64,000 nt of DNA from Raineyella fluvialis (lineage in GTDB: Bacteria; Actinomycetota; Actinomycetes; Propionibacteriales; Propionibacteriaceae), in the NCBI RefSeq assembly GCF_009646095.1, contig NZ_CP045725.1:3472001-3536000 (forward strand), written 5' to 3'. Numbering within the stretch: the stretch's first letter is position 1; every line of letters starts with the position of its first letter. Below are positions 19,598-22,048 of the stretch, piece after piece. The position numbers were made by a program, and so were the translations under genes. The notes under the pieces are model-generated. The model was given only the letters and a program-made list of their open reading frames with translations. It did no database searches and was not told the DNA's origin.

Positions 19598-20881
19598 TCA
19601 GACGCCGCGGCGCGCGGGCTGGACGCTGGTCAGGTCATAGCCGACCTCGGAGTGCTCGGCCAGGTCGATGCCCGAGGTCTCTGCCTCGGGGCTCACCCGC
19701 ATGCCGATCGTCCGGGTCAGGACCGTGGCCAGCAGCCAGGTCATCCCGAAGGAGAAGGCGCCCACCACCAGGACGGCGACGGCCTGACGCCACAGCTGGT
19801 CCACGCCACCGCCGTAGAAGAGACCTGCGACGCGGGTCGCTGTGCGGGGGTCGGCGAAGAGGCCGATCCCGAGGGTGCCGATGATTCCGCCGACCAGGTG
19901 GACTCCCACGAGGTCCAGCGAGTCGTCAACGCCCCAGACGAACTTCAGGCTGACGGCCCAGGAGCAGGCGGCGCCGGCGAGTAGCCCGATGACCATGGCG
20001 CCCAGCGGGCTCACCGCTCCACCCGAGGGGGTGATCGCGACCAGGCCGGCGACCGCTCCTGAGGCGGCACCCAGCGACGTCGCGTGACCGTCACGCCGCT
20101 TCTCGACGAAGAGCCAGGCCAGCATCGCCGCGCACGGGGCGAGCAGGGTGTTGACCCAGATGAGGGCCGCCCAGGTGCCGGAGACCAGCGCGGATCCGGA
20201 GTTGAAACCGAACCAGCCGAACCACAGCAGACCGGCGCCGAGCATCACCAGCGTCATGTTGTGCGGACGCATCGGCGCCGAGCCGAAGCCGATCCGTCGG
20301 CCGAGGACGATCGCCAGGGCCAGGCCGCCGGCGCCGCAGGCGACCTCGATCGTGGTACCACCCGCGAGGTCGATGGCGTGGAGGCTGTTGACGATCCAGC
20401 CGCCCCTCGGGGCGCTCAGCCCGTTGCTGGCGAAGACCCAGTGCGCCAGCGGGGCGTACACGAGCAGGAGCCACAGCACCGACAGGGCCATCCAGCCGCG
20501 GAAGGTGGCGCGTTCGGCGATCGCCCCGGACAGGAGTGCGACGGCGATGATCGCGAAGCAGCCCTGGAAGCCGGCGAAGGCCAGCGCCGGAACCGTCCCC
20601 ACCGTGGGGTCCCCGTAGACCAGTGAGTCGAGGAACGCGAACTGGAACGGGTTGCCGATGATGCCCCCGATCGAGTTGCCGAACGCCTCGCTGTAACCCA
20701 CGATGGCCCAGGCGACCCCGGCCGTGGCTATGCTGACGAAGCTCATCATGATCATGTTGAGCACGCCCTTGGACCGCACCATGCCTCCGTAGAAGAAGGC
20801 CAGTCCAGGCGTCATGAGCAGCACCAGGGCGGCGCTGGTCAGGAGCCACGCAGTGTCACCCGTGTTGATCTCAAGAACCAC
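19598..20881 (-). CDS. amt: Ammonium transporter, Amt family
   Basis: Trimeric inner-membrane ammonium channel, about 427 residues with 11 predicted helices. Family signature MTPGLAFFYGGMVRSKGVLN near the N-terminus, the pore His regions (ARLAHWVF-like LAHWVFASNG and VHLVGGIIGTLGIG) and the C-terminal tail. I prefer the GTG at 20881-20879 (VVLEINTGDTAWLL), which matches the family start. The longer ATG reading at 20929 runs into the GlnR-like sites. No glnB/glnD follows. Nitrogen control is likely from the sites upstream. Confidence 0.93.
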   Translation of the reverse strand: MVLEINTGDTAWLLTSAALVLLMTPGLAFFYGGMVRSKGVLNMIMMSFVSIATAGVAWAIVGYSEAFGNSIGGIIGNPFQFAFLDSLVYGDPTVGTVPALAFAGFQGCFAIIAVALLSGAIAERATFRGWMALSVLWLLLVYAPLAHWVFASNGLSAPRGGWIVNSLHAIDLAGGTTIEVACGAGGLALAIVLGRRIGFGSAPMRPHNMTLVMLGAGLLWFGWFGFNSGSALVSGTWAALIWVNTLLAPCAAMLAWLFVEKRRDGHATSLGAASGAVAGLVAITPSGGAVSPLGAMVIGLLAGAACSWAVSLKFVWGVDDSLDLVGVHLVGGIIGTLGIGLFADPRTATRVAGLFYGGGVDQLWRQAVAVLVVGAFSFGMTWLLATVLTRTIGMRVSPEAETSGIDLAEHSEVGYDLTSVQPARRGV

Positions 20882-20905
20882 GAGTGACAACGTTGCACGG
20901 CCCTT

Positions 20906-20965
20906 GTTTCGGCACCATTCCCAGGCCATTACGGTTCCATGAGCATGGTGTTACGGAGATGTTTC
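20906..20965. promoter_or_regulatory. Phased GlnR-like half-sites upstream of amt
   Basis: On the minus strand six pentamers each separated by exactly six bases: GAAAC, GTAAC, CTCAT, GTAAT, GGAAT, GAAAC. The actinobacterial GlnR box is GTnAC-N6-GAAAC in the same 11-bp phase; five of six pentamers fit one or other half-site closely. The site lies between amt and a divergent lipoprotein gene. Confidence 0.55.
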
Positions 20966-21037: not shown

Positions 21038-22048
21038 ATGAGTCCTCTCCCGGACCCGCGGATGCCCGGGCGTCGGGCCTTCCTCCTCGGCACCGGCGTC
21101 CTGCTCGCCGGCTGCGCGACGGGGCCGCGCGGTCCCGCCGCCCCACCCCCGGACCCGACCACCATCGGGGCTGCGACCCCCGGACCGACCGCCCAGCGGA
21201 CGGGCGCCGCCGAGTCTCCGAGCGCCGCGATGCCCCCGCGGGCAACCTGGTCGGCGGACTCCAACGACGTCCGGCCCGCCGTCAAGCAGGCCGCCACCCG
21301 GCTCATCGAGGCGCTGGGGAACTGGGACCACGGTGATTCCGGCCCTGACGCCGCGGGTGCTCGGGTGAGGGCGCTCGGCCAGGATCCGTCGCTGGTGGAG
21401 GGCGTCGGCGCCCTCGTCACGGATGCGGACGCCTCGGTGCTGCAGGTGATCGACGCACAGTACGGCGGCATCCTCTCCGACTCGGCGAGCGTACTGGTCG
21501 TCACGCGTACCTGGGCCCGGAGCCCGGCCGGGACCATCTCCGGCGGAGGCGCCACGTACGACGTACGGCTCTCCAGCGCCTCCCCCACCTGGCGCGTGAC
21601 CGAGATCCACCCCTCCCAGCCGGGCACCCCGGTCACCCCCGGCACTCTCGCGCACGAGGTGCTCAGCTCGGATCGCCTCGACCTGCCACCGGCATCCTCC
21701 GCTGACATCGCCTCGGGGCAAGTCCACGACTCCGTCCTGGAAGCGATGCTTCACCTGGCCCAGACCTATCGTCTCGGCATCAGCGTCGTCCGTTCCGGAC
21801 ACCCGACGTACGTGTTCGGCACCACCAGGCCCAGCGACCACCCCCGGGGCCGCGCCTTCGACACCTGGATGATCGACGGGCATCCCGTCGTCGCCTCGGC
21901 CACGCCGCAGGCACTGGTCACCGCCTTCATGCGTGACGCCGCCCGGGCGGGCTCCTACAACATCGGCGGACCGTACGCGGTGTCGGGCTCCGCGTACTTC
22001 ACCGACGACACCCACCACGACCACGTGCACGCCGGGTTCACCAGCTGA
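21038..22048 (+). CDS. Lipoprotein with M15-like peptidase C-terminus
   Basis: 336 residues. The N-terminus RRAFLLGTGVLLAGC has a lipobox (LAGC), so it is membrane-anchored outside. The middle is a Pro/Ala-rich linker and a domain of unknown type. The C-terminal region has SDHPRGRAFDTWMIDG and HHDHVHAGFTS, resembling the H-x6-D and HxH zinc ligands of VanY/M15-type peptidases, although the spacing is unusual. A role in cell-wall peptide trimming is inference. The start is ATG 21038. Confidence 0.7.
   Translation: MSPLPDPRMPGRRAFLLGTGVLLAGCATGPRGPAAPPPDPTTIGAATPGPTAQRTGAAESPSAAMPPRATWSADSNDVRPAVKQAATRLIEALGNWDHGDSGPDAAGARVRALGQDPSLVEGVGALVTDADASVLQVIDAQYGGILSDSASVLVVTRTWARSPAGTISGGGATYDVRLSSASPTWRVTEIHPSQPGTPVTPGTLAHEVLSSDRLDLPPASSADIASGQVHDSVLEAMLHLAQTYRLGISVVRSGHPTYVFGTTRPSDHPRGRAFDTWMIDGHPVVASATPQALVTAFMRDAARAGSYNIGGPYAVSGSAYFTDDTHHDHVHAGFTS

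Follow-up and report, generated by a model that had tools for sequence, protein, structure and literature searches.

The window analysed here, 64,000 nucleotides of the genome of Raineyella fluvialis, contains a gene for an ammonium transporter of 427 amino acids (amt, 19598–20881, minus strand; PF00909, E 7e-112; TIGR00836 above cut-off), with a metagenome-assembled genome of Propionibacteriaceae (63%) and Tessaracoccus (62%) as its closest named matches. Divergent from it lies a lipoprotein open reading frame (21038–22048, plus strand) that gave no Pfam or NCBIfam match at E 0.001, and whose C-terminal stretch (SDHPRGRAFD...HHDHVHAGF) we take to resemble zinc D,D-carboxypeptidases (M15-like). 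Six pentamers follow one another between the two genes in exact 11-bp steps, separated by six-base gaps, from 20965 to 20906 on the minus strand, which is the coding strand of amt.

The start of amt was set by comparison, since its relatives align from the GTG at 20881. The longest open reading frame begins at ATG 20929, inside the array, and would place the array partly within the reading frame; this start was rejected on the alignment of the relatives and on the sequence of a second genome of the genus (G003), in which an in-frame stop falls inside its own array (in the GTAAC at −49), with no in-frame ATG, GTG or TTG between that stop codon and the GTG. With GTG 20881 as the start, the array is best read as intergenic, separated from the start codon by 24 bp. 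No ribosome-binding sequence is evident in this gap, which is itself short; both features suggest that the transcript is leaderless or almost so, as would also result from a possible −10 element, AACGTT (20889–20894, minus strand), a weak match to the consensus TAnnnT.

No P-II gene (glnK) was found at the amt locus of the window, where amt stands alone; the sole P-II gene found in the genome follows another amt copy. Both other copies (G000:C1:2811292-2812550 and 2331093-2332333; loci L082, L085, L083 and L084) are split over two reading frames, which would leave the window's amt as the single intact copy among the three detected, although the splits could be either sequencing errors or real frameshifts.

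Structure and significance of the array

Read in the direction of amt, the array (20906–20965, minus strand) is GAAAC-GTAAC-CTCAT-GTAAT-GGAAT-GAAAC, as defined by a half-site matrix, a scan of periods and alignment with three relatives. The matrix was built on the a (gTnAc) and b (GaAAc) consensus given in PMC5826061, with weights of our own. Slots 1 (GAAAC, 20961–20965), 2 (GTAAC, 20950–20954), 4 (GTAAT, 20928–20932), 5 (GGAAT, 20917–20921) and 6 (GAAAC, 20906–20910), all on the minus strand, score 8.2, 8.4, 7.2, 4.0 and 8.2, respectively, and thus fit a GlnR half-site at 4.0 or above. Slot 3 (CTCAT, 20939–20943, minus strand) scores 0.3 and is therefore not recognisable as a half-site, although the same pentamer recurs at the same slot in a related genome (G002). 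The preliminary description had counted six half-sites; five of its slots bear this out, and the third is degenerate.

The sum over the six slots, 36.3, is the highest of all positions on both strands of the window, where the best score without overlap with the array is 8.6, and it far exceeds the maximum of 19.3 reached in 150 simulated windows of 64 kb each (order-3 Markov). Periods of 8, 9, 10, 12, 13 and 14 bp gave best six-slot scores of at most 9.7, so that the high score belongs to a period of 11 bp only, and the exact 11-bp phase originally proposed for these 60 bp, with its six-base gaps, is upheld. The slots flanking the six score −8.4 and −7.3. A GTCAC does lie in register two slots beyond the array, near the start codon; a non-site separates it from the array and it was left uncounted.

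The classic two-box operator, gTnAc-n6-GaAAc-n6-GtnAC-n6-GAAAc, has the same pentamers and six-base gaps in four slots, rather than the six found here. Its a-b-a-b form had been put at about 27 bp, which is a miscount: four half-sites span 38 bp, and 27 bp holds three. The array is longer than this two-box form, as the preliminary description held, but not longer than every GlnR operator, since a three-box form with six sites (a3-b3, a1-b1, a2-b2) is published for the amtB promoter of Streptomyces coelicolor (PMC5826061; reviewed in PMC10704036) and was described in 2018 as the most GlnR boxes found in one promoter. In that account the a2 site, which is atypical, can be dispensed with, and induction was faster and larger with three boxes than with two. 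Like S. coelicolor amtB, then, the locus described here has six GlnR-type sites before an ammonium transporter, one of them atypical. Unlike the S. coelicolor promoter, compared by its published description, all six slots stand in exact 11-bp register, the gap between array and start codon is 24 bp, and amt is alone, without glnK. A GTAAC-20-GTCAC/T-11-GAAAC-22-GAAAC arrangement, one step of which is out of 11-bp register, occurred in 16 of 23 Streptomyces amt loci, a comparison of spacing only.

GlnR and its putative boxes in the host genome and in relatives

GlnR is an orphan OmpR-type nitrogen regulator of actinobacteria. Among eleven Trans_reg_C domains in the host genome, one belongs to a protein encoded at G000:C1:2235163-2235813 (minus strand) that aligns over its full length with 8hih (E 8e-74) and, in its receiver part, with 4o1h, a named GlnR (E 2e-22). 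By sequence, this receiver is without the acidic pair after the first strand and without the usual Lys-Pro. An NCBIfam search returned no GlnR model and only matches below cut-off, to PhoB, MtrA and others. The genome thus encodes a glnR, and a box at glnA, the other feature that the preliminary description had proposed to look for, was also found: GTAAC-GCAAT-GCAAC-GAAAT (2504301-2504338, minus strand), a short way upstream of the presumed glnA ATG, scores 25.9 over four slots compared with a maximum of 17.1 in 150 simulated windows, and has the classic four-slot form.

Across the whole genome, the four-slot consensus had 24 matches with up to three mismatches, the glnA box among them, and its reversed control had 7. 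One stretch repeated at three places, presumably 16S rRNA, accounts for six of the 24. The amtB-glnK pair is preceded by a weaker in-phase box (CTCAT-GTAAC-GCAGG-GAAAC) whose score, 11.9, is what a simulated 64-kb window reaches at its maximum on average. The score is not significant alone, so that the case for this box comes from its position and from a nearly identical box (13.1) at the amt of another genome (G001). A four-slot score of 14.2 was found at the glutamine synthetase gene near the third amt copy (L140). Two further glutamine synthetase loci had nothing comparable (L139, 5.8; L141, 9.5), nor had the third amt itself (L083, 5.3). A match scoring 18.2 (L100, G000:C1:2235936-2235973) lies just upstream of glnR on the opposite strand, where either autoregulation or chance is possible. 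Elsewhere in the genome, a locus (L096, G000:C1:1081421-1081627) encodes a protein that combines a uroporphyrinogen-synthase-like part with a winged helix at its C terminus and that we take to resemble the nitrate/nitrite regulator NnaR, and a GlnR-like four-slot match (1077641-1077689) is found about 4 kb from it.

Arrays of this kind are conserved at amt in the family of the host (f1, probably Propionibacteriaceae). Twenty of 22 amt loci exceeded a four-slot score of 11.8, which is the 99th percentile for shuffled versions of their own promoters (4,400 in total). One shuffled version reached 21.7, which counts against too ready an attribution to GlnR. The same 20 loci also exceed 7.2, the maximum of 126 coding segments. 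Further amt matches of the family, outside the 22, come for example from G006, G007, G025, G029 and G030 and from the second copies of G002, G003 and G032. Of the 22, the two that fall short are L122 (G021), at 0.9, and L127 (G005), at 6.4, the latter being included in the shuffle test of 22 loci and left out of the coding-segment comparison, the strand counts and the pair distances. Sixteen of the 22 loci have two half-sites 22 bp apart, the first of them 43 to 55 bp ahead of the GTG 20881 position, and distances between half-sites on the coding strand peak at 11 bp (16/133) and 22 bp (18/133), as they do among 80 named loci (50/380 and 47/380). GlnR-like pentamers favour the coding strand of the family promoters (97 vs 52); those on the opposite strand nevertheless weaken the GlnR reading, as does L116 (G019), which has a four-slot score of 19.9 on the template strand besides its coding-strand array, template-strand scores being otherwise lower. 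Exact 11-bp register was rejected as a universal mark, since several members of the family have a 10- or 21-bp step; in L113, the half-sites lie at −84, −73, −63, −52 and −30.

A GlnR-grade match (E below 1e-50, our own threshold) was found in 53 of the 57 genomes searched and an amt match in 52. Four genomes had no GlnR-grade match. In three of them (G015, G022 and G028) amt was likewise not matched; the fourth, G005, is 82% complete and carries an amt that lacks an array, its best score being the 6.4 already given. This co-occurrence, in small numbers, is consistent with the array being read by GlnR, against which stand G021, with GlnR and no array at amt, and G013 and G016, with GlnR and no amt match. 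The amt of G021 has, before its start codon, a purine-rich stretch in place of an array.

The closest orthologues of the window amt are those of G003 (86%), G002 (83%) and G032 (83%). G002 has four slots in exact register followed by half-sites one base out, and G032 has four slots and then two more, at 10 and 11 bp; in the alignment of all four sequences few runs are invariant, and these include GTAAC of slot 2 and GAAA of slot 6. No glnK was found near amt in these relatives, the contig of G032 ending too early to tell, and glnK lies within the locus in all of the other 18 family loci but L127. In G003, which belongs to the same genus, eight in-register slots (GAAAC-GTAAC-AACGC-GTAAC-AACAC-GTAAC-TGAAC-GAAAC; L109) cover 82 bp, from 104 to 23 bp before the start of the orthologous amt, with a score sum of 44.1. 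Six of the eight are recognisable by score; the other two are AACGC, which at −3.6 is no half-site, and AACAC, a weak one at 2.5. Within the titles and abstracts of the literature, we found no GlnR array of more than six sites, which is not proof of absence, and the eight-slot form and the variation of slot number within one genus could be new. One explanation would be that the stand-alone amt of this genus acquired GlnR operators that grow in 22-bp steps, to six slots here and eight in G003, on which a GlnR filament, three to four dimers long and in exact 11-bp register, would give a steeper nitrogen switch than the amtB-glnK promoter of the same genome; given the two poor half-sites among the eight slots of G003, we consider this rather unlikely.

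Candidate regulators and target genes

Taken together, the glnR gene, the glnA box, conservation in the family, and the strand and position of the array make an extended GlnR-type box for amt a well-supported reading of the sequence, as the preliminary description had proposed, despite the one slot in six that is not a half-site. That degenerate slot is also all that speaks for a chance periodicity in a GC-rich intergenic region, a reading whose probability is close to nil: it is refuted by the simulated windows, none of 150 exceeding 19.3, and by the period scan, and arrays are conserved in relatives. The PHO boxes of PhoP are 11-nt direct repeats as well (PMC6988585), and PhoP and MtrA compete for the GlnR sites of amtB in Streptomyces (PMC6988585, PMC9045223), so that a PhoP array might be supposed; we think this highly improbable, as the array region has no real match to the GTTCACC core. 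A matrix for two GTTCACC repeats reached at best 3.0 there (rank 422 of 127,966; window top 18.0), and matrices for three, four and six repeats scored below zero (ranks 482, 273 and 68 of about 127,900), the fairly high rank for six repeats coming with a score of −8.9. A PHO box defined by GTTCACC in 11-nt direct repeats was therefore rejected.

MtrA is the more serious competitor. In Streptomyces it is reported to bind GlnR boxes, and an mtrA mutant shows higher expression of nitrogen genes, amtB among them (PMC6988585, PMC9045223); PMC9045223 describes its motif as highly similar to that of GlnR, with sites that overlap GlnR boxes at the same target genes, which MtrA represses. The host encodes a homologue (G000:C1:2804575; E 7e-100 against the MtrA structure 2gwr), and the array could also, or mainly, be an operator at which MtrA represses amt in nitrogen-rich conditions, competing with GlnR at GTAAC-type repeats, a possibility to which we give appreciable weight, though short of an even chance, and which is compatible with the GlnR reading if both proteins bind. 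PMC5487470 and PMC13189361 yielded no usable MtrA matrix, and as the sites resemble those of both regulators, sequence alone cannot separate the two. The GAAAC slots and the matching glnA box nevertheless fit GlnR as the main regulator, and MtrA as the sole regulator is unlikely.

The array had further been suggested to act on the divergent lipoprotein gene, between whose ATG, 72 bp away, and the start codon of amt it lies. That it serves both genes now appears improbable. It is oriented towards amt and abuts the amt start codon, and the neighbour is not conserved: tblastn with an E limit of 1e-3 detected no homologue of the lipoprotein at any of the 109 other amt loci, 29 from relatives and 80 named, two of the named ones (L005 and L009) having less than 500 bases upstream. 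Orthologues in G002 (68%, on a different contig from amt) and G001 (70%, about 600 kb from amt) have no array in the 250 bp upstream, where the best four-slot scores are 1.4 and 0.1, respectively. With the orthologues located away from amt and lacking an array, the two genes are probably neighbours by chance.

A proposed role in nitrogen scarcity

Our preferred reading, which we hold with considerable confidence, is that the 60-bp stretch is an extended GlnR operator that serves amt and would activate it under nitrogen scarcity. GlnR dimers would line up head to tail along a single face of the DNA, with one subunit to each 11-bp slot, and the slot nearest to amt would fall at about the −35 region of its promoter, from which bound GlnR may recruit RNA polymerase when nitrogen is scarce. 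Cooperative binding, as originally suggested, is plausible. By analogy with the dispensable a2 site of Streptomyces amtB, the degenerate slot 3 would probably be filled, if at all, through neighbouring dimers. An array of this kind, known in its six-site form from Streptomyces amtB, is not new in kind, and the system is otherwise largely ordinary nitrogen regulation.

The conserved boxes indicate that putative multi-box GlnR control of ammonium transport reaches beyond Streptomyces, into a family that is probably the Propionibacteriaceae, in which close relatives differ in how many slots they have and how these are spaced. Within one genus, the six- and eight-slot forms would constitute a natural series in which the number of GlnR sites can be set against the speed and steepness of the nitrogen response, and this variation offers a way to test how slot number affects nitrogen switching.
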